DNA from: Oscillospiraceae bacterium
GTDB taxonomy: Bacteria; Bacillota; Clostridia; Oscillospirales; Oscillospiraceae
NCBI GenBank assembly: GCA_017535865.1
Contig: JAFXTM010000110.1
Span: forward strand, 1 to 37,581
Reading direction: 5' to 3'
DNA length: 37,581 bases
In this document: positions 3,143 through 37,581 of the stretch, one piece after another
Position numbering within the stretch: the stretch's first letter is position 1
Layout of the letters: each line of letters opens with the position of its first letter
The notes under the pieces: generated by a model
Told to the model about the DNA's origin: nothing
Seen by the model: only the letters and a program-made list of their open reading frames with translations
Databases searched by the model: none
Made by a program: the position numbers and the translations under genes

Positions 3143-3216
3143 AGCGGGATTGTGTAAAGGTAGCACAGCGGACTCTGACTCCGTATGTGAGGGTTCGAAT
3201 CCTTCTCCCGCTGCCA
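3143..3216 (+). tRNA. tRNA-Gln (anticodon CTG)
   Basis: The cloverleaf is complete. The acceptor stem AGCGGGA pairs with TCCCGCT, and the anticodon loop CTCTGAC gives anticodon CTG, reading CAG. The T arm contains GGTTCGAATCC and the CCA end is encoded. Its 3' half is the integration target of the element to the right: bases 3193-3217 recur exactly at 6670-6694, so integration left the tRNA intact. Confidence 0.95.
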
Positions 3217-3217
3217 G
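3193..3217 (+). repeat. attL core (tRNA-Gln 3' end), copy 1
   Basis: A 25-base direct repeat beginning GTTCGAATCC and ending GCTGCCAG, covering the T arm to CCA plus one base. The identical copy lies at 6670-6694. The copies flank an AT-richer segment with a tyrosine integrase, the usual pattern of site-specific integration into a tRNA 3' end. Confidence 0.88.
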
Positions 3218-3220
3218 CGG

Positions 3221-3253
3221 AACAGCTTGATTTCGTTATGATTTCAAGCTGTT
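3221..3253 (+). terminator. Element-borne terminator after tRNA-Gln
   Basis: The stem AACAGCTTGA (3221-3230) pairs with TCAAGCTGTT (3244-3253) and is followed by TTTTCTTCTTT. It lies directly after the left att core and replaces the original tRNA terminator, which was displaced to 6697-6739. Confidence 0.7.
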
Positions 3254-3744
3254 TTCTTCTTTATGAGCAGATTTCTGTGCGTAATAGTTCAAAATGAATA
3301 ACGTAAAAATCGCTTTCGCCCCCATTTTCGCCCCAACCAGCTTTTTTGCGCTGCTGTTGAGGCCTCTTTGCTCTTGTATATTCTGGCTCAAAATGGTATT
3401 ATTAATTTGCCTCTTCCCATGTCCCAAACTATAGAAGTGAGCTGGAAGCTTATAACAGCAACCAGCTCATTTTGTGCTTTTTCTTGACTAATCTGTCCAC
3501 CAAATTATATAGAAAATGTCTAAATAAATCCTATGAGCAAGTACAAAGGATGGGGCTTCCATTGACGGTGAATGGAAGCCTGTTTTTTTGTGGTCAATCG
3601 TTTTTCAGAAAAATATGTACAGTTATATTCAGTATAGATGGTACCTGCCTATGTGGTGATAATATCGCCGTGCTTTTCATCATGCATTTTTGTATACAAG
3701 ATACAAAGAATCGCAAATGAAAAGCTTGTTTTTTTGATATAGTA
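3254..3744. other. Non-coding left end of the integrative element
   Basis: About 490 bases with no convincing gene. It contains the left arm-type repeat (3314-3337). It also contains a hairpin-like segment near 3556-3590, where GGCTTCCATTGAC is followed by TGAATGGAAGCC and a T run, which could be a terminator. The short open frames here lack ribosome binding sites. Confidence 0.5.
3314..3337 (+). repeat. Putative integrase arm-type site, left
   Basis: Two tandem TTTCGCCCC-type units ending in AAC. The same arrangement in the same orientation recurs at 6534-6556, one C shorter. Each lies roughly 100-135 bases inside an att core, where tyrosine integrases of Tn916 and lambda type bind arm sites through their N-terminal domain. 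Function is inferred. Confidence 0.55.
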
Positions 3745-3773
3745 TTGGTATATTAGTTAGTATATAGTATAGT
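3745..3773 (+). promoter_or_regulatory. Likely promoter of the YbjN-like pair
   Basis: TTGGTA (3745-3750), 17-bp spacer, TATAGT (3768-3773), in a very AT-rich stretch 37 bases before the first gene. Confidence 0.45.
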
Positions 3774-3809
3774 GTAAGATAACAAAAAAACAACTATGGA
3801 GGTATGACA

Positions 3810-4322
3810 ATGAAAAAAGGGCTTATGTGTTTTGTATCAATGGTATGCGTAATCGCGATGCTTGTCTCTATGGGAAGTGTATCCTTTGCACAAGAGACTG
3901 AATACAAATCAACACAGCATTTCCTTGACTATATGGATGAGCTGGGGATTCCATATAACTATTACGGAATAGACGATGATAATTGGGAAGCAGTTAGTGT
4001 CATTTTTGGCCCATCCATCTCTTCAAGCTTTGAATGCTTCATTTATTTCGAACAAAACAATCATGAAGTCGAATTTCGGATTTGGGATTTAGTTAAGCCT
4101 TCTGCAGGCGAGAATTTTACTCTATCTACCATAAATGAGTTGAACGCAAATTGGAAATATGCAAAATTCGTTTTAAATGAGCGCGATTCAACGGTTCAGG
4201 CGGAAATGGATATGTATATCGACGGAGACCATTGCGCTCGTTCAGTATATGATGCCATGGATTCCCTTTTAGACATTATAGAAGACGAGTATACCTCACA
4301 AGCATTACGAAAACTCGAATAA
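3810..4322 (+). CDS. Secreted YbjN-like protein, copy A
   Basis: A small exported protein of 170 residues. An in-frame ATG lies at 3804, but it sits only one base after GGAGG. The ATG at 3810 has normal spacing and is preferred. Residues 1-27 form a Sec signal peptide ending SVSFAQ. The mature part resembles the YbjN fold: a helix ending DELGIPY, a strand pair around ECFIYFEQ and RIWDLVK, a LSTINELN helix, then two strands and a C-terminal helix. YbjN domains resemble type III secretion chaperones and bind protein partners, but no catalytic residues are known. The family call is by pattern and moderate. It is followed by a diverged tandem copy with a near-identical signal peptide and leader. 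Confidence 0.72.
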   Translation: MKKGLMCFVSMVCVIAMLVSMGSVSFAQETEYKSTQHFLDYMDELGIPYNYYGIDDDNWEAVSVIFGPSISSSFECFIYFEQNNHEVEFRIWDLVKPSAGENFTLSTINELNANWKYAKFVLNERDSTVQAEMDMYIDGDHCARSVYDAMDSLLDIIEDEYTSQALRKLE

Positions 4323-4394
4323 ACCTTTGAATTGTTTTTCATTTGTGCATGGTAGAGTAATACTACTACCAAAAACAACTATGGAGGTATGACA

Positions 4395-4916
4395 ATGAAA
4401 AAAGGGCTTATGTGTTTTGTATCAATGGTATGCGTAATCGCGATGCTTGTCTCTATGGGAAGTGTATCCTTTGCACAAGAGACTAAATACAAATCAACGC
4501 ACCGTTTCCTTAACTATATGGATGAGCTGGGGATTCCATATAAGTATTATGGAATAGACGATAAAAATTGGGAAGCAGTTGTAATCAATTTTGACACATT
4601 TGGCCTATCGACCTTTTCTGGGGTTGAATGCTTCATTTATTTTGAACAAGACGATGAGGAAGTCTGTTTGCGGATTTGGGATTTAGTTAAGCCTTCTGCA
4701 GGCAAGAATTATACTCTATCTACCATTAATGACTTGAACGATTATTGCCCGCATGTCGATTTTGTTTTTGATGAAAACCATTCTACTATTTTTGCGCAAA
4801 TTGACATGTTTATTCATATAAACCATTGCTCTAGTTTAGTTTTTAAAGCGATGGAGGTCCTTTATAACACTTTAGAGGACGAAGAAATTTCACAAGCATT
4901 AAAAGGTCTCGAATAG
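4395..4916 (+). CDS. Secreted YbjN-like protein, copy B
   Basis: This is the second member of a tandem duplication, 173 residues. Its upstream ribosome binding site and signal peptide repeat copy A nearly base for base from about 3790 to 3920. The mature chain has drifted. DELGIPY, IDD-NWEAV, CFIYFEQ, IWDLVKPSAG, LSTIN and SQAL remain. The middle (after NWEAV) gains three residues, and the segment after LND is largely different. Both copies keep a Cys in the CFIYFE strand and one after the NHC/DHC turn, which could pair once exported. The function is unknown. Copies A and B are probably co-transcribed. Confidence 0.72.
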   Translation: MKKGLMCFVSMVCVIAMLVSMGSVSFAQETKYKSTHRFLNYMDELGIPYKYYGIDDKNWEAVVINFDTFGLSTFSGVECFIYFEQDDEEVCLRIWDLVKPSAGKNYTLSTINDLNDYCPHVDFVFDENHSTIFAQIDMFIHINHCSSLVFKAMEVLYNTLEDEEISQALKGLE

Positions 4917-5006
4917 GCTGGTGGATTGATTACCATCCTGGTGTTCGGGATGTTGAATTAGTGAACGTCATGGGAACATTCTATCTCGAGTTGGAGATAT
5001 AAACAC

Positions 5007-5031
5007 AAGGGCTGGGGTAATCCCGGCCCTT
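5007..5031. terminator. Bidirectional terminator inside the element
   Basis: The stem AAGGGCTGGG (5007-5016) pairs with CCCGGCCCTT (5022-5031) around a 5-base loop. It lies between the convergent YbjN pair and the minus-strand small genes. Confidence 0.6.
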
Positions 5032-5048
5032 CTCGTGTTCTTCGGGAG

Positions 5049-5348
5049 TTAATCGGGGGTTTTGGTGTGTTTCACCATTCGTGCCCATGTACTAACAGCA
5101 ATGACAGCAAGGCCGGAAATGTCGATTTTTTGCAGCGTCTGCTCGATAGGTCCCAGCGTTTCCCCCTGCACCTCTTTAATTGTCAAGCACGGCCGAAGCT
5201 CGGAAAGAATCTTGTCCAACTGCCAGACCATCAAGCTATCCGCCTTTTTTATGTTGGCGATTACACGCTCAGACGGCGGCTCACATTGCCGAAAAATCTC
5301 CTCGTGGATGTCTCCGACCGGAATCACGGCATATTCCATTTTCGCCAT
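5049..5348 (-). CDS. Small hypothetical protein of the element (99 aa)
   Basis: I do not recognise this protein. It begins MAKMEYAVIPVG, has a charged, helical-looking middle (VIANIKKADSLMVWQLDKILSEL) and ends in a mildly hydrophobic segment (ISGLAVIAVSTWARMVK). Its ATG overlaps the upstream gene's stop by one base (TAATG), so the two are probably translationally coupled. It is part of the AT-rich tRNA-Gln element and has no detectable catalytic motif. A regulatory or accessory role is possible but not supported by any motif. Confidence 0.6.
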   Translation of the reverse strand: MAKMEYAVIPVGDIHEEIFRQCEPPSERVIANIKKADSLMVWQLDKILSELRPCLTIKEVQGETLGPIEQTLQKIDISGLAVIAVSTWARMVKHTKTPD

Positions 5349-5539
5349 TACTCGCCCTCCGTCATTTTATCCCAAATCTCGGATGATGCTTCGCACCAAT
5401 CCGCGATTCGCTCAAGGGCAGCGGCTACGCGGTCACCATTGGTGGCGGAAGGGGCCTCCGGCTCTTTCATCAGAGCGGCGGCAATTCGGATAATTGCATC
5501 CCTCTGACGGCTGTTTGGAAAATCACAGCAACAGTTCAA
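5348..5539 (-). CDS. Small hypothetical protein, TTG start (63 aa)
   Basis: The product starts MNCCCDFPNSRQRDAIIRI and ends WDKMTEGE. I do not recognise it. The start is placed at a TTG at 5537-5539 because AGGAGA lies just upstream (minus strand). The longer frame, opening at 5629, would run antisense through the integrase remnant and is unlikely. The stop overlaps the next gene's ATG by one base. The region upstream of its ribosome binding site is the broken 5' end of the integrase, so this gene may have lost its original promoter. Confidence 0.5.
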   Translation of the reverse strand: MNCCCDFPNSRQRDAIIRIAAALMKEPEAPSATNGDRVAAALERIADWCEASSEIWDKMTEGE

Positions 5540-5557
5540 TTTCGTTTTTCTCCTATC

Positions 5558-6495
5558 TGTATCAGTACCCACATCAAACCCGCTCTTGGCCGAGTTAAGC
5601 TTTGCACCCTTAATCCGCCACAAATCCAAAAGTTTGTAAACCAGCTCAGCAAGAGCGGGAGAAAGATTGTCAAAAAAGACAAAAAAACGGAAAAGAAGAA
5701 GTTTCCTTTGCTGGCCTCTCGCCCAAATCTGTCAAGAATGTGCACGGCGTTCTCTCTAAGGCCCTTAGCGTTGCCGTTGATGTTGGATTCATAAAAAGCA
5801 ACCCCTCCGAGCGGGTCACACTTCCGCGCGCTGTAAAGCCCGAAATGCACCCGCTTGACAAAACGCAACTTCCCCAATTCTTGACGGCTGCCGCCGATGA
5901 TGATTATAAATATCTTTTGCAAATCCTCCCGCTCACTGGCCTCCGACTCGCAGAATCAACAGGTCTCACTTGGGATTGTGTAAACTTCAAGGCCGGGACA
6001 CTTACCATAAACATGCAGCTTACAAAGCGCAAGCTCTCGGACGGAGGATTTACACTTGATACGCCGAAAAACGGAAGGAGCCGTATTGTAAAACCAGCCC
6101 CCTTTGTTATGGAACTCCTGCGAAAAAGAGAGGTCGAGCAAATGCAGGAGCGCTTTACGGCTGGGGAACTGTGGCAAGGCTGGCAAAGCGATAAAGAGCG
6201 TAAAACCGGCCTTGTATTTACAACTCCGCTCGGGACTAACCTAAGCCCTCAGACAGTATATAACCATTGTAAAAAGGTTATGGCCTCAATCGGGATTGAG
6301 GCCAGTTGTGTCCACGACTTACGGCACACTTACGCTGTGTTATCCATTCAGGCGGGAGACGATATTAAAACGATAAGCACAAACCTTGGACATGCAACGG
6401 TTGCCTTTACATTGGACAGATACGGCCACGTAACCGACTCAATGCGGGACGAGTCCTCCCGGAAAATGCAGCAGCTTCTTGACGCCATATTGTAA
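5558..6495 (+). pseudogene. Tyrosine recombinase/integrase, 5'-truncated and frameshifted
   Basis: The catalytic domain is intact. The RLAEST motif carries the first Arg and Glu, HDLRHTYA gives His-x-x-Arg, LGHA gives the next His, and Tyr in LDRYGHV is the nucleophile. The upstream part continues in another frame (5558 to about 5690) with a typical core-binding segment: THIKPALGRV, then an Asn-Pro-Pro turn and IQKFVNQLSKSGR. The frame changes within the A-rich run at 5671-5700. Roughly the first 60-70 residues expected for the family (arm-binding domain) are absent; the sequence there joins the opposite-strand small genes. A restart at GTG 5740 would give only the catalytic domain. It lies next to the right att core, as expected for the element's integrase. 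Confidence 0.8.
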
Positions 6496-10014: not shown

Positions 10015-12216
10015 TCAGCCCGCGAGGATCTGGGCGGCGGCAAAGGTGCCGGCGTCACGTCCGGAGACGAAGCAGTAGCCCTGGGCGCAGCCGCCGTAGT
10101 TGGTATAGGCCTTGTTCTCGTTAAAGAGCACGCCCATGCTGTCGGTGCCGCAGGCAAAGAGGCCGGGGATGACCTCGCCCGCGGTGTCGAGGACCTGGAA
10201 GTTCTCGTTCACATCGAGGCCGCCGCAGGTGCTGTAGATGTAGGGGCAGCCCGTGAAGGCCACATAGTACGCGGAATCCGGGGAGATCGTGCCGAGGCGC
10301 TCGAACTTGGAGGGGTCCTTGCCGAAGGCGTCGCCCTCGGGCGTGTAGCCCGCGACGGAAGCCTTCAGATTCTCGGCGGGCATACCGAGCTGTTCGGCCA
10401 GTTCATCGAGCGTGGCGGCTTTGTAGACAAAGCCTTCCTCCACACAGTGGTCGATAACCGCGTCGATATTCGCCAGCGGCGTGTCGGCCACGATGCCTCC
10501 CTGGGAGAGATAACGGCCGCTCGCATTGGCGCTCAGGCCCTGCTCGCGCAGCACGTCGATCTGCTCGGCGGAGTAGACATAGAAGAATTCGCTGCCCTGA
10601 TAGAAAGCCTCCATGGAGATGGAGGACTCGTTGATGAAGCGGTTGCCCTCGCGGTTGACCGCCATGCCCTCAGACGTGCAGATCAGGCCGTAGGGGATGT
10701 CGTTGTCCGCGAAGGAGAAGCAGGTGGTGATCTGCGCGGGCGCGACGAAGTGGGACATCGGATAGATGCCGATGCTGTAGGTCGCGGCGCCGTTGTCCAC
10801 CGCGGAGGCGATCATCTTGCCGTCGTTGGTGTACATGCCGTACAGCTTGTAGGCCTCGCCCTGGAAGCGCTTCTGGAGCTCCTGGCTGCCGCCGTAGCCG
10901 CCTGAGCAGCAGAGCACAGCCTTGGCGCGGATCGTCACCTCGGTGCCGTCGGCCTTGACCGCCTTGACGCCGACGCAGCGTCCGTCCTCAAAGAGAAGGT
11001 CTGTCGCCTCGGTCTCGAGCATGTACCGGCCGCCCATCTCCACATACTTCGCGTAGGCAGCGGCAAAGTAGCTTTCGGTAAGCTGCTTGTTGCCGACATA
11101 GGAGGAGAAGATCGCCCACTTGCCGCCGACAAAGCCAACGGGAGGACCGAAGGCGAAGCCGTAGCTCTCAAGCCAGTCGCAGGTCTCGCCGGACTCGTTG
11201 ATCACCTTGGCGATCAGCTCGGGCTTCGCGCCCTGCACGCCGTCGACCGTGGTATATTCGCACCAGGTCTCGTACAGCGCATCGGCATCGACGAACAACT
11301 CGCCGGGCGCCTTGTCATGCTTGCCCTGGACCGGGTCGTTCCACTCCAGGACCTCCCCGGCGACCTTGCTGGGCGGGTTGACGTTCGCGGGGCCGGAAGT
11401 CGTGGCGCCGGTGCCGCCCCACTTGGCGGCCTTGTCGATCGCGAGGACGGAGACCCCGGACTCGGCAGCCGCGAGCGCGGCGGTTGTGCCGGAGGAGCCC
11501 ATGCCGACGACAAGGATGTCGGTCTCATAGGTCTCGCTGGCAGTGCTCTTCTCAATGGGCGTGTAGAGCCCGGAGAGATCCATGCCTGCGTCGGTCAGCG
11601 CGTTCTCGACGCCCTGACGCACGCCGTTGCAGGTCGCGGTCGCGCCGGTGAGCGCATCGACCGCCAGGCTCTGGTTCTCGATGACACGCGGGATGTAGGT
11701 GTTGACGACCGTGTCGATAAAGCCGTTGGTCTCGCCGTTCTCGCCAACCTCGATGGCCGCGAGCATGCCGTCCTTCACCTCAACGGTGACGGGCACGCGG
11801 ACCGTGAGATTGAAGCCGAAGCCCTCGGCGGAATAGCTGCCGTCGACCAGCGGAGCGGCCTCGGCGGTTTCCTCGCCCTGTGCCTGGGCAAAGCAGGCGG
11901 CGACGGCGGTCTTCACGGCCGTCGAGGTAAAGGTCGCGCCGGAAACGCCGTCCACCTCATCGGGGGACGCGATGCCGACCAGTCTGGTCCGGAACTGCTC
12001 AATGGCAGCGCCGCCGACGGTCGGGGTCTCGCCGGCCCCTTCGATGGAGACCGCCGTGACCTTGTCCGCGTCAAAGCTGAGTTTGACGGTGACCGGGCCG
12101 CCGAAGCCCTGGGCCGTGGCCTCGTACTCGCCGGGCGTGAAGCCCTCCGCGAGCACGACGCAGCTCAGCGAGAGCAGCAGGCAGGCGCAGAGGATAAGGG
12201 ATAATACTTTGCGCAC
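10015..12216 (-). CDS. Secreted flavinylated FAD-dependent reductase (two FMN-binding domains + fumarate-reductase-like domain)
   Basis: An extracytoplasmic oxidoreductase of 733 residues. Start is GTG with AAGGAGG upstream. Residues 1-23 form a signal peptide. Two FMN_bind domains follow with covalent flavinylation motifs DGVSGAT (Thr95) and DALTGAT (Thr193). The FAD domain starts near residue 232 with the dinucleotide motif GMGSSG (238-243) and an acidic end at IDK. The C-terminal half has the family's GEVIPGLFACGTDS segment. The fumarate signatures are replaced: TCGGLDVN stands where HTMGG is expected, and AYTNYGGCAQGYCFVSGR where GNRVGGNA is expected. Known relatives use FMN groups to pass electrons to an organic acceptor. 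The acceptor here is probably not fumarate. It is divergent from the NusG-II/Gx genes, suggesting a joint redox function. Confidence 0.9.
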   Translation of the reverse strand: MRKVLSLILCACLLLSLSCVVLAEGFTPGEYEATAQGFGGPVTVKLSFDADKVTAVSIEGAGETPTVGGAAIEQFRTRLVGIASPDEVDGVSGATFTSTAVKTAVAACFAQAQGEETAEAAPLVDGSYSAEGFGFNLTVRVPVTVEVKDGMLAAIEVGENGETNGFIDTVVNTYIPRVIENQSLAVDALTGATATCNGVRQGVENALTDAGMDLSGLYTPIEKSTASETYETDILVVGMGSSGTTAALAAAESGVSVLAIDKAAKWGGTGATTSGPANVNPPSKVAGEVLEWNDPVQGKHDKAPGELFVDADALYETWCEYTTVDGVQGAKPELIAKVINESGETCDWLESYGFAFGPPVGFVGGKWAIFSSYVGNKQLTESYFAAAYAKYVEMGGRYMLETEATDLLFEDGRCVGVKAVKADGTEVTIRAKAVLCCSGGYGGSQELQKRFQGEAYKLYGMYTNDGKMIASAVDNGAATYSIGIYPMSHFVAPAQITTCFSFADNDIPYGLICTSEGMAVNREGNRFINESSISMEAFYQGSEFFYVYSAEQIDVLREQGLSANASGRYLSQGGIVADTPLANIDAVIDHCVEEGFVYKAATLDELAEQLGMPAENLKASVAGYTPEGDAFGKDPSKFERLGTISPDSAYYVAFTGCPYIYSTCGGLDVNENFQVLDTAGEVIPGLFACGTDSMGVLFNENKAYTNYGGCAQGYCFVSGRDAGTFAAAQILAG

Positions 12217-12264
12217 GGGAAATCGAACCTCCTTTTATAGTCTTTCGGGAATCTTGCTTTTTTG

Positions 12265-12293
12265 ATTTTATCACCACATATGGGCAAACGCAA
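12265..12293 (-). promoter_or_regulatory. Promoter of the flavinylated reductase
   Basis: On the minus strand TTGCGT (12293-12288), 17-bp spacer, TAAAAT (12270-12265), about 50 bases before the GTG start. Confidence 0.6.
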
Positions 12294-12418
12294 GGGCTTT
12301 GAAAAAACAGTGGTCATTTCCGGGCAAATATGATAAGATACCTTTGCTTGAAATAGGGTTCGGTCCCATTCGGATCGGATCGTTCCCACCACACTGCGGG
12401 AGGGAGGTCCTTGCCCTT

Positions 12419-12967
12419 ATGAAAAAACGGGATATTCTGCTGATTCTTGGGATCGCCGCGCTTGCTCTCGTGCTGCTGCTGTTCGGTCTGTCGCAGCGCT
12501 CCGCCCTCCCCTCCCCGACCGTGGCCGTTACCGAGGCGCCAGCCGCCGTGACCGAAACGCCCGGCGCGGAAAGCGGAGGGGCGGCAGAGGAGAAGTCGCC
12601 CGTCGAGGCTTTCTTCGAAGAATACCCGGCGGAGTCCTATCTCCTGCTGACGACCGCGAGCGGGACCCGTATGCCGATCCCGCTCAACGAGGACAACGCC
12701 TTCCGGATCACGCAGGCGGACGGCAGCGAGAATGTGGTCCACATCGGCAAAGACTCGTTCTTTATGGAGTCCTCGAACTGCGAGAATCAAAACTGCGTGC
12801 GGCAGGGCGAGGTCACGCTCGAAAACCGGGAGACGCGCATCCTGTTCAATATGGTGATCTGTCTTCCGCACAACATCCGCCTGGAGCTGGTGACGCGCGA
12901 GGAGGCGCAGCGCTTCCTTGATGAGATCTACACGCCGGAGGAGAGCTCCGACGCCGCCGGAGGGTAA
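12419..12967 (+). CDS. NusG domain II protein, EetA-like, membrane anchored
   Basis: A 182-residue protein with an N-terminal membrane helix (residues 5-23) and an Ala/Thr/Pro/Glu-rich linker. From about residue 70 it has a NusG-II beta barrel: HIGKDSFFMESSNCENQNC, VRQGEV and MVICLPHNIRLEL. The Cys-x4-Cys and CLPH are the family's conserved cysteines and Pro-His turn. Such proteins, with a Gx-family protein next door, correspond to EetA/EetB of Listeria and Enterococcus extracellular electron transfer loci; that knowledge is from those species. The start at 12419 has GGGAGG upstream. The stop is 6 bases before the next gene's ATG, so it is an operon. Confidence 0.82.
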   Translation: MKKRDILLILGIAALALVLLLFGLSQRSALPSPTVAVTEAPAAVTETPGAESGGAAEEKSPVEAFFEEYPAESYLLLTTASGTRMPIPLNEDNAFRITQADGSENVVHIGKDSFFMESSNCENQNCVRQGEVTLENRETRILFNMVICLPHNIRLELVTREEAQRFLDEIYTPEESSDAAGG

Positions 12968-12973
12968 ACCGCC

Positions 12974-13492
12974 ATGATGCGATTTCGTACGCGCCGTCTC
13001 GCCGTCTCCGCGCTGCTCGTCACAGTGATGCTGATGCTGGGCTATGTGGAGAGCCTGGTGCCGACCGGGATACCGGGCGTCAAGCTCGGCCTGAGCAACA
13101 GCGTGCTGATCCTGGCGATCGTCTGGCTCGGCATCCCGACAGCCTTTGCCCTGATGGCCGCGAAGGTCCTGCTCTCCGGCTTTCTTTTCGCCGGCGTGAA
13201 CGCCATGATGTACGCCTTTGCGGGCGGATTGCTGAGCATGGTCGTCATGGCCGCGCTGTACAAGACGCGCGCCTTCAGCCTCACACCGATCGCCATGGCC
13301 GGCGCCGTCTCGCACAACATGGGGCAGGTCGGGCTGGCCATGCTGATCCTGCAGACAGAGAAGCTGGTCTACTATATGGCGATCCTGATGCTGGCGGGTC
13401 TGGTGACGGGCTTTGTCACCGGGACCGTCGCCGCCATCCTTGTCAAGCGCCTCCCGCGGAGCCTGTTGCCGGAAGATCCGCGAAAAAAGTGA
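12974..13492 (+). CDS. Gx transporter family membrane protein, EetB-like
   Basis: A polytopic membrane protein of 172 residues with about five to six helices. The segment PTGIPGVKLGLSNSVLILAI, with its Gly-rich turn after helix one, is typical of the family, which is often annotated heptaprenyl diphosphate synthase component I. Family members resemble ECF S-components and occur beside NusG-II proteins. In Listeria/Enterococcus the pair supports electron transfer to secreted flavoproteins. Its ribosome binding site (GGAGGG) lies inside the end of the NusG-II gene, indicating coupling. Whether it moves electrons, quinone or flavin cannot be told from sequence. Confidence 0.82.
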   Translation: MMRFRTRRLAVSALLVTVMLMLGYVESLVPTGIPGVKLGLSNSVLILAIVWLGIPTAFALMAAKVLLSGFLFAGVNAMMYAFAGGLLSMVVMAALYKTRAFSLTPIAMAGAVSHNMGQVGLAMLILQTEKLVYYMAILMLAGLVTGFVTGTVAAILVKRLPRSLLPEDPRKK

Positions 13493-13499
13493 GGCCGTG

Positions 13500-14423
13500 A
13501 TGAAGAACAAAAAAGTCCTCGGGAATATCCTGCTGACCCTGACCGCCGTCATCTGGGGCTGCGCCTTCGCCGCACAGCGCGCGGGCATGGAGAGCATCGA
13601 GCCCTTCACCTTCACCGCTGCCCGGATGGTGCTCGCGGCCGCCGCCGTCGGGCCGGTCGCGCTACTGGCCGGAAGGCGCGAGCGGCGGGGCTCGCCCGCC
13701 CGCCAGCCGGAGGAAGAGCGCGCCCGCCGGCGCAGCACCGTGATCGGCGGCCTTTGCTGCGGCTGCTTTCTCGCCGCAGCCAGTCTCTTCCAGCAGATGG
13801 GCGTTGTCTACACGACGGCCGGCAAAGCGGGCTTCATCACGGCGATGTATATGCTGCTCGTCCCTATCCTCCACTTTCTGCTGTTCAAAAAGAAGAATCC
13901 CTGGCATGTCTGGCTTGCGGTCCTGATCGGCGTCGCGGGGATGTATCTGCTCTGCGTCAGCGAGAGCTTTCGCCTCAGCCGCGGCGACGCGCTGGTATGC
14001 GTCTGTGCGCTGCTGTTCAGCGGGCACATCCTCAGCTGCGACCACTTCGCCAAAACGGGCGATCCCCTGCGCGTCTCCGCGATCCAGTTTGTGACCGCCG
14101 CAGTCATTTCCGCCGTCCTGGCCTTTCTCGCGGAGGAGCCCAGCCGGGAAAAACTGGCTGCGGCCGCTATCCCGATCCTGTACTGCGGGCTGCTCTCCGG
14201 CGGGCTCGGCTATACGCTGCAGATCGTCGCGCAGCGCTTCACCGACCCGACGATCGCCTCCCTGCTCATGAGCCTCGAATCGGTCTTCGCCGTGCTGGCA
14301 GGAGCGCTTCTGCTGCAGGAGCGCATGAGCGTGCGGGAGCTCGTCGGCTGTCTGGTGATGTTCGCCGCGATCGTCTTGGTGCAGCTGCCCATGCCGGGTA
14401 CCACGCCAGAAAGAAAAGTCTGA
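13500..14423 (+). CDS. EamA/DMT-family transporter
   Basis: A drug/metabolite-superfamily permease of 307 residues with ten predicted helices in two EamA repeats. The first repeat opens at residue 7 (GNILLTLTAVIWGCAFAAQR). The second ends with the usual FTDPTIASLLMSLESVFAVLAGALLLQERM segment, both halves visible by eye. A basic, Arg-rich loop (residues about 62-80) separates helices two and three. The substrate is unknown. It follows the Gx gene by 7 bases and is probably its operon partner, so it may export a metabolite or cofactor precursor linked to the redox module; that is speculation. Confidence 0.88.
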   Translation: MKNKKVLGNILLTLTAVIWGCAFAAQRAGMESIEPFTFTAARMVLAAAAVGPVALLAGRRERRGSPARQPEEERARRRSTVIGGLCCGCFLAAASLFQQMGVVYTTAGKAGFITAMYMLLVPILHFLLFKKKNPWHVWLAVLIGVAGMYLLCVSESFRLSRGDALVCVCALLFSGHILSCDHFAKTGDPLRVSAIQFVTAAVISAVLAFLAEEPSREKLAAAAIPILYCGLLSGGLGYTLQIVAQRFTDPTIASLLMSLESVFAVLAGALLLQERMSVRELVGCLVMFAAIVLVQLPMPGTTPERKV

Positions 14424-35066: not shown

Positions 35067-37103
35067 TCAGCCGCCGAAGCCGATCTGTTCCAGGGCCTCG
35101 GCCACCGCCGCCTTGATCGCGTTCGAGGTCATCGTCGCGCCGGAGACCCCGTCGACCTCCGCGCTCTGTGCCTCTACGATCTTCCCGGGCAGCTGCTCCA
35201 CCGCGATGGAGCCGATGCCCTGCGTTTCGTTGTTCTTCACGACCGTCACGGAGTAGATCGTGCCCGCGTCGGCTACGACCTCGACCACCACGTCTTCCCC
35301 GAAGACGCCCGGCTTCGTCACCGTCACGGTCTGCGCCTCGCCGGCAGCAGCTTCCTCAGCGGGAGCCTCCTCAGCGGGAGCCTCCTCAGCGGGAGCCTCC
35401 TCGGCGGGAGCTTCCTCAGCAGGAGCCTCCGCCGGAGCCGCGCCGAAGCCGATCTGTTCCAGGGCCTCGGCCACCGCCGCCTTGATCGCGTTCGAGGTCA
35501 TCGTCGCGCCGGAGACCCCGTCGACCTCCGCGCTCTGTGCCTCCACGATCTTCCCGGGCAGCTGGTCCACCGCGATGGACCCGATGCCCTGCGTCTCGTT
35601 GTTCTTCACGACCGTCACGGAGTAGATCGTACCCGCGTCGGCCACGACCTCGACCTCCACCGGATCGCCGATCACGCCCGGCTTCGACACCGTCACGGTC
35701 TGCGCCTCGCCGGCAGCAGCTTCCTCAGCGGGAGCTTCCTCGGCAGCTTCTTCTGCTACAAGCTCCGCTCCGCCGGCATAGGCCGCGGCGTTGCCGCCCG
35801 CGATGCGCCCGAAGATCGTGAAGTCCGCCACGGCGTTGCCGCCCACGCGGTTCCCGCCGTGGATGCCGCCCGTCGTCTCACCGCAGGCGAACAGGCCCGG
35901 AATGACCTCGCCCTCGGTGCTGATCACCTGCGCCAGCGTATTGATCTTGATGCCGCCCATCGTGTGGTGGATGCCCGGCGCGATCTTGATCGCGTAGTAC
36001 GGCGCCACCGACAGATCCTGATCCACGCCCTTGCGTCCGAAGTCTTTGTCCTCGCCTTCCGCGACGGACGCGTTCCAGGTCTCCATCTGCTGCACGAAGT
36101 TCTGAACGGCCTCGCCCTCCAGGCCCATCGCCTGGCCGAGTTCCTCATAGGTTTCGCCCGTGATCGTATAACCGCCCGCGATAAACTTGTGCGTCAGCGC
36201 AACCTCATCCACCAGCTTCTGGTCGAAGATGATGTACGCATAGGCGCCGGGCTGCTTGAGCTCCGCCTGCGACACCACGTCGCGGCCGTCCATGTCGTTC
36301 ACAAAGCGCTTGCCTTCCGCATTCACCAGGATCGCGCCATGGCTGCGCAGGGACTCGGACACCAGCAGGCCGTTCGACTGGATGACCGTCGGATGGAGCT
36401 GGATCTGCTCCATGTCCACCGTCGCCGCGCCAACCGCTTCCGCCAGCGCAATGCCGTCGCCCGTCGCGCCCGCGTGGTTCGTCGTCACTGCGTTCGCCAG
36501 GCTCGGATCGTAGCTCGCCATCAGCTCGAAGTTCGCGCCGAAGCCGCCCGTCGCCAAGACGACAGCCTTTGCTCTCACCGTGTAGATGTGCTCCGCATCC
36601 TCCGCGATCACACCCACTGCCTGGCCGTTCTCCATCAGGATCTCGGTCGCGCGGGTCTTCAGCATGACCTCGATGCCCAGAGTCTCCACCTGCTGTTTCA
36701 GCTTGTCCACAAGGTACTCGCCCACGGGCAGTCCGCCTTCCGGCTTGTGCAGGTACTTGCGGCCCTGCGCGCCGCCGGTCGCCTCGACTTCCGGCAGCGG
36801 AGCGCCGATGGAGTCGAGCCATTCAACAGCTTCCGCCCCGTTCTCCGCCAGCGTACGTACCAGCTCGGGGTCCGCCAGATAGTGGCCCAGCCGCAGCGTA
36901 TCCTCGATGTAGTTCTCGACCGTGCTGTCGGTGAGGCCGAGCTCCGCCTCATAATGCGTATTCGCGGCGTTCATGCCGCCCTCCGCACGCAGGCTGTTGC
37001 CGCCCACCATGCCCATCTTCTCCAGCACGAGGACCTTCGCGCCTTCCTGGGTGGCACGCACAGCCGAGGTCAGGCCTGCGCCGCCCGCGCCCACGACCAC
37101 CAC
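35067..37103 (-). CDS. Fumarate-reductase-like FAD domain plus two C-terminal FMN-binding domains (downstream part of a frameshifted gene)
   Basis: As read, 678 residues. It starts inside the dinucleotide fold (GAGGAG at 5-10, LEK at the second strand). The fumarate-reductase active site is present: QLHPT (His), MDGRDVVS (Arg), HHTMGG (His) and GGNRVGGNAVADFTIFGR (Arg, FAD-end helix), so fumarate or a close analogue is likely reduced. From about residue 460 come two FMN_bind domains with DGVSGATMTS flavinylation motifs. They are joined by a (APAEE)n linker and are almost identical to each other. An upstream reading frame carries two more FMN domains and would join this one if one base were restored near 37100-37110. 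GGAG before the GTG could allow restart, but the product would then lack its export signal. Confidence 0.85.
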   Translation of the reverse strand: MVVVGAGGAGLTSAVRATQEGAKVLVLEKMGMVGGNSLRAEGGMNAANTHYEAELGLTDSTVENYIEDTLRLGHYLADPELVRTLAENGAEAVEWLDSIGAPLPEVEATGGAQGRKYLHKPEGGLPVGEYLVDKLKQQVETLGIEVMLKTRATEILMENGQAVGVIAEDAEHIYTVRAKAVVLATGGFGANFELMASYDPSLANAVTTNHAGATGDGIALAEAVGAATVDMEQIQLHPTVIQSNGLLVSESLRSHGAILVNAEGKRFVNDMDGRDVVSQAELKQPGAYAYIIFDQKLVDEVALTHKFIAGGYTITGETYEELGQAMGLEGEAVQNFVQQMETWNASVAEGEDKDFGRKGVDQDLSVAPYYAIKIAPGIHHTMGGIKINTLAQVISTEGEVIPGLFACGETTGGIHGGNRVGGNAVADFTIFGRIAGGNAAAYAGGAELVAEEAAEEAPAEEAAAGEAQTVTVSKPGVIGDPVEVEVVADAGTIYSVTVVKNNETQGIGSIAVDQLPGKIVEAQSAEVDGVSGATMTSNAIKAAVAEALEQIGFGAAPAEAPAEEAPAEEAPAEEAPAEEAPAEEAAAGEAQTVTVTKPGVFGEDVVVEVVADAGTIYSVTVVKNNETQGIGSIAVEQLPGKIVEAQSAEVDGVSGATMTSNAIKAAVAEALEQIGFGG

Positions 37104-37581
37104 GTCGACTCCAGCTCGACAGGCGTCTTCTCCACCTCGACTTCCTCGGCCGGGGCCGCCGCAGCGCCGCCGCCGACAAAGCCGATCTGCTCCAGAGCCT
37201 CGGCCACCGCCGCCTTGATCGCGTTCGAGGTCATCGTCGCGCCGGAGGTACCGTCGACTTCCGCGCTCTGCGCCGCCACGATCTTGCCCGGCAGCTCGTC
37301 CACCGCGATGGACCCGATGCCCTGCGTCTCATTGTTCTTGACCACCGTTACGGAGTAGATCGTGCCCGCGTCAGCCACGACCTCCACCACCACGTCTTCG
37401 CCGAAGACGCCCGGCTTCGTCACCGTTACGGTCTGCGCCTCGCCGGCGGCGGCTTCCTCCGTGCCGCCGACAAAGCCGATCTGCTCCAGAGCCTCGGCCA
37501 CCGCCGCCTTGATCGCGTTCGAGGTCATCGTCGCGCCGGAGGTACCGTCGACTTCCGCGCTCTGCGCCGCCACGATCTTGC
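37070..37581 (-). CDS. N-terminal FMN-binding domains of the same flavoprotein (partial, cut by window)
   Basis: This frame runs off the window edge at 37581, so its true start and any signal peptide are not seen. It contains the end of one FMN_bind domain and a complete second one, both with DGTSGATMTS flavinylation motifs, separated by a short GGTEEAAAGE linker. The frame then reads AAAAPAEEVEVEKTPVELE and runs into a nonsense tail (STWWSWARAAQA) before a stop. Immediately before the tail it meets the FAD frame, where VDVVVVGAGGAG is encoded one base out of phase. The best reading is one gene with a single-base deletion after the VELE codons. Confidence 0.8.
   Translation of the reverse strand, partial: KIVAAQSAEVDGTSGATMTSNAIKAAVAEALEQIGFVGGTEEAAAGEAQTVTVTKPGVFGEDVVVEVVADAGTIYSVTVVKNNETQGIGSIAVDELPGKIVAAQSAEVDGTSGATMTSNAIKAAVAEALEQIGFVGGGAAAAPAEEVEVEKTPVELESTWWSWARAAQA

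Follow-up and report, generated by a model that had tools for sequence, protein, structure and literature searches.

Gene content of the locus

We describe a locus that encodes a secreted reductase and two small membrane proteins in an Oscillospiraceae bacterium (GenBank assembly GCA_017535865.1). The stretch analyzed, hereafter the window, is 37,581 nucleotides long and constitutes one whole contig (JAFXTM010000110.1; C38). The draft genome to which it belongs spans 2.48 Mb over 118 contigs; its assembly is 80.5% complete and 3.6% contaminated, which bounds the absences given below for this genome. The reductase gene (RED) and the gene for a NusG_II protein (EetA_w) have divergent starts with 202 bp between them (12217..12418), and EetA_w is followed by EetB_w, a membrane protein of family PF07456. 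The presence of these genes is confirmed. An initial annotation had described a secreted protein with two flavinylation motifs and a flavin adenine dinucleotide (FAD) domain, divergent from a NusG-II and a Gx membrane protein; domains and adjacency bear out this description, as well as the link that it drew between a flavinylated secreted reductase and an EetA/EetB-type locus.

RED (10015..12216, minus strand; 733 residues from a GTG start) matches FMN_bind (PF04205) in two stretches (91 bits) and FAD_binding_2 (PF00890; 113 bits). The first FMN_bind domain (11893..12108, minus strand) carries DGVSGAT at residues 89–95, ending in Thr95, and the second (11596..11817, minus strand) carries DALTGAT at residues 187–193, ending in Thr193: both agree with the flavinylation pattern D-x-x-[ST]-G-A-[ST]. 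Alignment of the window protein with eight orthologues gives SGAT in eight of nine rows and SGAS in the other for domain 1, and TGAT in all nine for domain 2; a modifiable Thr or Ser is retained in every row, that of the window included. Orthologues are 75–87% identical in nine other genomes of the genus, the copy in genome G214 being partial (436 residues). The N-terminus, judged by eye, has a hydrophobic signal and no twin-Arg motif. FMN_bind, PF00890 and this signal (the last by eye) together identify RED as a flavinylated fumarate-reductase-like reductase.

The catalytic domain (residues 233–694; 10135..11520, minus strand) has urocanate reductase (6t85) as its top solved-structure match in a profile search. 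When aligned by profile with both fumarate and urocanate reductases, RED lacks the active-site His and Arg of these enzymes: it reads YSTCGG where HHTMGG is expected, with Ser in place of the second His, and Asn replaces Arg shortly before the GG. We take this His and Arg to be catalytic residues in both reductases. Their replacement by Ser and Asn makes a different substrate likely, and RED probably acts on something other than fumarate or urocanate. No NCBIfam family reached its cut-off among the 25 matches listed for RED; the best names were vinyl phenol reductase VprA (144 bits against a cut-off of 600) and tricarballylate dehydrogenase TcuA (131 against 369 bits).

EetA_w (12419..12967, plus strand) matches NusG_II (PF07009) with 36.4 bits against a cut-off of 29.6, the match being partial (profile positions 35–105 of 107). 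By eye it consists of a single N-terminal hydrophobic helix, which would anchor it in the membrane, a Pro/Ala/Glu-rich linker of ∼40 residues, and the NusG_II domain. In alignment this domain has three invariant cysteines (Cys121, Cys126 and Cys148), and the motif C-x4-C...CLP is found in 38 of 38 EetA-like open reading frames (ORFs), EetA_w included. EetA_w shares a longer spacing before the third Cys with the EetA proteins of loci L083 and L184, each encoded in an EetA-EetB-ApbE operon. Its best solved-structure matches are a hypothetical protein, an uncharacterized protein and Lin0431, all of which we take to be NusG_II folds.

EetB_w (12974..13492, plus strand) matches PF07456 with 105 bits, as expected of an EetB-type protein, and is likely an ECF-S type FAD exporter subunit. 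NCBIfam assigns no family to either EetA_w or EetB_w. Orthologues of EetB_w, 69–78% identical, occur in six other genomes, five of them RED carriers and the sixth G138. In a tree of 48 EetB rows, all drawn from the window's own bacterial family, EetB_w and its orthologues form their own clade (100/99), the position of which beside the ApbE-adjacent and core clades is not fixed. The genome encodes a second NusG_II-PF07456 pair on contig C101. Its EetA does not have the Pro/Ala/Glu-rich linker, and its EetB clusters with other single-copy EetBs in the tree; judging from this placement, and from how widespread EetB_w-like matches are in the family, the pair looks like the common type. A natural EetA-EetB fusion was also encountered: a single ORF of 351 residues (L080:7208-8263) that combines the EetA motif with a match to EetB.

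Linkage of RED and EetA_w across the genus

The survey comprised 101 genomes of the genus, with presence read from draft assemblies and the genome of the window counted for both RED and EetA_w. At E up to 1e-30, and with no more than 10 candidates scored per genome, 20 genomes matched RED; ten were counted (the own genome and nine others) and ten with paralogues or fragments only were left out, including G145 (62% identity over 118 residues only). For EetA_w, 43 genomes matched at E up to 0.01, and again the own genome and nine others were counted (54–62% identity over most of the protein), leaving out 32 weak matches (E of 5e-6 or worse) and G199, whose match is of another type (35% identity) and belongs to an EetA-EetB-ApbE operon. 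Both genes are present in nine genomes, RED alone in one (G211), EetA_w alone in one (G138) and neither in 90 (Fisher p 5e-11, relatedness ignored). EetB_w is present in six of the ten RED carriers.

RED and EetA_w lie close together and divergent in eight of the nine genomes with both. They stand directly back to back in the window genome, G180, G133 and G214; in G186, G179, G217 and G167 the genes EetB-EetA-LysR face a Tat-type protein resembling old yellow enzyme (OYE; Oxidored_FMN plus Pyr_redox_2), beyond which lies RED. The divergent arrangement, conservation of which the initial annotation had proposed as a check, thus recurs in related genomes, with variants in which OYE and LysR genes intervene, EetB is absent or the pair is detached. 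Six RED carriers have the OYE-type neighbor (G186, G179, G217, G167, G211 and G204, where it is cut by the contig start), which hints that the acceptor of RED may be found among unsaturated carbonyl compounds. The flanking genes of the eight linked loci fall into five groups (the window; G180; G133 and G214; G186 and G179; G217 and G167), and when 6 to 11 flanking ORFs from each were compared, no gene was common to different groups at more than 45% identity. Among ten named loci with close RED orthologues, EetA_w is beside RED in seven, L202, L208 and L209 being without it. All ten come from metagenome-assembled genomes labeled Ruminococcaceae, Oscillospiraceae or uncultured Clostridiales; where a sample is stated it comes from a ruminant (goat duodenum, water buffalo abomasum, sheep rumen or roe deer abomasum), and RUG in genome names presumably denotes rumen genomes.

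Of particular interest are G180, G133 and G214, where EetA_w stands beside RED and no EetB_w orthologue is present. The single EetB match in each is 36–39% identical to EetB_w, about as similar as the window genome's own C101 copy (40%). The gene after EetA_w encodes glutamine synthetase III in G133 and an 89% identical counterpart in G214. Between these two genomes EetA_w shows dN of 0.135 against dS of 0.72 (Nei-Gojobori), and EetA_w is therefore under purifying selection without EetB_w. In both (loci L172 and L173) the other EetB is found on the contig of RED-EetA_w, at a distance of ∼14 kb; the interval holds ATP-synthase-like ORFs (by eye), and in G133 a weak NusG_II match adjoins that EetB.

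Trees were compared with a core-gene tree of PrfA from 50 genomes, MnmA having been discarded as a marker because many genomes have two paralogues. The RED and EetA_w trees are compatible: both pair the window with G180, G133 with G214, and G186 with G179, although some EetA branches are weakly supported (83/87 for the window and G180). On the PrfA tree the carrier state changes seven times, and all seven changes are forced by well-supported branches. Neither RED nor EetA_w orthologues were found in the genomes most closely related to that of the window, G164 (73% complete; PrfA 91% identical), G126 and G152 (68% and 94% complete; PrfA 88% identical in both). Moreover, RED of the window and of G133 are 80% identical whereas the PrfA proteins are only 64% identical, which indicates horizontal transfer; the RED/EetA_w cassette probably moves horizontally. 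The three genomes without EetB_w fall in two separate places on the RED tree, from which it seems likely that EetB_w was lost twice. In seven independent contrasts the change in RED was matched by EetA_w in six, with none opposite and one showing no difference (p 0.031); for EetB_w four were the same, none opposite and three showed no difference (p 0.125).

Together these analyses support the view, to which we give a probability of about 0.6, that the locus is a mobile cassette built around a flavinylated secreted reductase, to which EetA_w serves as dedicated membrane partner. Several observations weigh against it. The difference between six and four contrasts is not significant, and the contrasts number only seven, on a single-gene tree with presence called from draft assemblies. 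RED carriers are somewhat clustered on the PrfA tree: shuffled labels gave a mean of 9.2 changes, with as few as seven in 15 of 500 shuffles. In G204 the EetA-EetB pair and RED lie on separate contigs, that of RED beginning inside the OYE gene. In G211 (83% complete) LysR faces OYE-RED and the EetA-EetB pair is missing, G138 (72% complete) has the pair and no RED orthologue, and at L208 there is no EetA_w in the 2.7 kb upstream of RED. The region between RED and EetA_w is poorly conserved among four aligned loci; a sigma-70-like site, as part of a conserved divergent promoter, was sought there and none was found. No ApbE is encoded within the window, a lack already noted in the initial annotation. 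Finally, related cassettes can move together without functional cooperation.

Proposed mechanism and alternatives

The genome encodes three ApbE proteins, all on contigs other than the window; the initial annotation had proposed a search for apbE elsewhere in the genome and had named a genome without ApbE as grounds against its model. DmkA, which it had listed as missing at the locus, was found nowhere in the assembly: a search for UbiA-family prenyltransferases, to which DmkA belongs, returned nothing at E up to 1, whereas 14 of 14 control genomes were positive. A complete Rnf operon lies on contig C51 (FeS/ferredoxin protein RnfB, two Rnf-Nqr subunits, FMN_bind protein RnfG, RnfD and RnfC), its RnfG bearing DALAGAT. 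A RED paralogue, 38% identical, directly adjoins ApbE (L031) and has the motifs DGVAGAT and DSIAGAT; it is the one other match in the genome at E up to 1e-30 among the 10 of 35 candidates that were scored.

For flavinylation, FAD export, the role of EetA_w, the electron source and the substrate we infer the following scheme. RED, judging from its signal, would be exported by the Sec route, and ApbE from elsewhere in the genome would attach flavin mononucleotide (FMN) to Thr95 and Thr193, as the motifs predict. By analogy with Listeria EetB, EetB_w, together with putative ECF-T and ATPase subunits encoded elsewhere, may export FAD for ApbE. EetA_w, anchored in the membrane and with a long linker that carries the three-Cys NusG_II domain, would act on RED itself, either by docking it at the membrane and providing an entry point for electrons or as a helper in flavinylation. 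Electrons would pass from the two FMN domains to FAD and on to a small organic acceptor, probably neither fumarate nor urocanate. The likeliest membrane source of these electrons may be Rnf; this is a guess, favored because no UbiA-type quinone gene was found.

It is possible that EetA_w and EetB_w are merely a second FAD-export pair that serves all flavinylated proteins, and that RED is their neighbor by chance or through shared mobility. We consider this unlikely. The genome has no lack of potential clients, with 20 FMN_bind matches at E up to 0.01 (19 above the cut-off), EetB-type proteins are near-universal in the family (an EetB_w-like match in 105 of 120 genomes), and in G204 and G138 the EetA-EetB pair stands apart from RED. 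However, a general export pair does not readily account for the contrasts, in which EetA_w follows RED no less closely than EetB_w, or for the presence of EetA_w beside RED in five contexts that include the three genomes without EetB_w.

The model of the initial annotation, in which EetA and EetB together form a membrane electron conduit that reduces RED, appears highly doubtful, and the claim that the Eet-like pair feeds electrons to the reductase is not borne out. In its favor, a double eetA/B deletion in Lactiplantibacillus lowers flavin-dependent iron and anode reduction and is not rescued by single complementation, and the authors draw a route from Ndh2 through EetA to flavin or PplA (PMC9888254). 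The conserved Cys motif of the EetA-like ORFs also fits a conduit. Against it, Listeria EetB is described as an ECF-S type protein that binds FAD and is required to export it for flavinylation by ApbE, and deletion of eetA in Listeria had no extracellular electron transfer (EET) phenotype according to the same paper (PMC9973259). For EetB, a part in feeding electrons is therefore not established, and for EetA it is contested. A conduit made of both proteins is also at odds with the three genomes that keep EetA_w and RED and are missing EetB_w, and with the failure to find a UbiA-type prenyltransferase in the assembly. The pair is better read as a cofactor supply plus a second protein than as an electron feeder. 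Likewise the term compact respiratory module was an overstatement, given a window without ApbE, an assembly in which no UbiA/DmkA-type gene was found, and a RED without the His and Arg of fumarate and urocanate reductases.

That the Gx protein is a component of prenyl diphosphate synthase with no link to flavin, as the Pfam name of PF07456 would have it, is very improbable: EetB, itself of PF07456, binds FAD and exports it (PMC9973259), the neighbors of the Gx protein in the window are RED, EetA and EamA, and apbE is a frequent neighbor in the family. Among 40 family loci chosen from places with EetB_w-like matches (for high scores, membership of the same genus, two-copy genomes and long contigs), apbE lies in the fetched stretch of at least 24 and within 200 bp in at least 13, and an FMN_bind protein in at least eight and within 500 bp in at least two, many stretches stopping at contig ends. 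PMC9973259 counts 3,328 genomes in which eetB is co-located with eetA and 2,169 in which it is co-located with apbE; co-location with Rnf is given for 572 Clostridia.

Returning to the mobile cassette with EetA_w as dedicated partner, a more specific proposal can be made, tentatively and at less than even odds: that EetA acts on the flavinylated reductase rather than the FAD exporter, as a membrane-tethered three-Cys protein for docking or electron entry that serves one reductase and is kept under purifying selection without a matching EetB. The Listeria and Lactiplantibacillus papers disagree on EetA. Since the locus offers a natural case of EetA parted from EetB and tied to a single reductase, the role of EetA becomes directly testable, and the occurrence of RED and EetA_w together in unrelated contexts provides a handle on the function of EetA_w. 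The arrangement further suggests a way in which individual enzymes may be given their own membrane partners in gut Clostridia that have many secreted flavin reductases.

Downstream of EetB_w lies an EamA/DMT exporter gene (13500..14423, plus strand; Pfam EamA, 141 bits). The initial annotation had included a DMT exporter in the locus; the gene exists, beyond the end that the annotation had given the locus (13492), and was not found beside the EetA-EetB pair in related loci. It was rejected as a component of the system and is probably outside it, because it is not conserved with the pair. A search for RNA elements in the window returned two tRNAs and nothing else. One, tRNA-Gln (3143-3216), precedes an ORF that by eye resembles a tyrosine recombinase (5740-6495), and the interval 3143-6495 is perhaps an integrated element or its remnant. 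A second flavinylated reductase lies at the contig end (35067-37579, minus strand): FAD_binding_2 and then two FMN_bind domains in 35067-37103, with two further FMN_bind matches in another, overlapping frame at 37070-37579, one of them cut by the contig end. The frames were read separately; the region holds four DGxSGAT motifs altogether. Elsewhere, OYE-type proteins with a flavinylation motif of their own were seen, for which the literature search returned no description: at L299:4680-7157 (minus strand) a Tat-like signal is combined with a weak FMN_bind match (22.6 bits), Oxidored_FMN, Pyr_redox_2 and DGISGAS, and at L300 (G000, contig C9) FMN_bind (25.7 bits) and an OYE match share one open frame. 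Tat-type Oxidored_FMN/Pyr_redox_2 proteins (L176:8478-10778 and relatives) are numerous in the genus; the window genome has several such matches, the closest being 64% identical to the OYE neighbor of RED.

Comparison with known systems

Flavinylated extracellular reductases were reportedly the subject of a study by Light et al. in 2019. A literature search, with most subscription papers outside its coverage, found no description of the RED/EetA_w locus. Three known systems invite comparison.

The first is the FLEET locus of Listeria and Lactiplantibacillus (Ndh2, EetA, EetB, FmnA, FmnB/ApbE, DmkA and PplA), which shares with the window the NusG_II and PF07456 pair and the tie between a flavinylated secreted reductase and Eet-type genes: the FrdA of Listeria, a reductase of this kind, is linked to the EET electron transport chain (PMC8238504), as RED is to EetA_w here. 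In contrast to FLEET, the window locus has no adjacent ApbE and no UbiA-type gene was found in the genome; moreover, its pair is a second, diverged copy, divergent from the reductase, and EetB can be absent.

The second comprises the FMN_bind oxidoreductases of the FrdA/UrdA type (PF00890). Fusions of FMN_bind with PF00890 are common (3070 proteins; PMC8238504), and RED resembles them in its FMN_bind and FAD_binding_2 domains, secretion signal and flavinylation motifs. It differs in having two FMN_bind domains, YSTCGG for HHTMGG, and Asn for Arg before the GG.

The third is the ECF-S FAD exporter EetB (PMC9973259). EetB_w is like it in belonging to PF07456, in standing next to EetA and in a genome that has ApbE, but it is a second copy beside a core pair and is linked to one reductase; three carriers have EetA without it, and G211 lacks both. 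Taken together, the kind of system is known, and what is new is an EetA separated from EetB and attached to one reductase.

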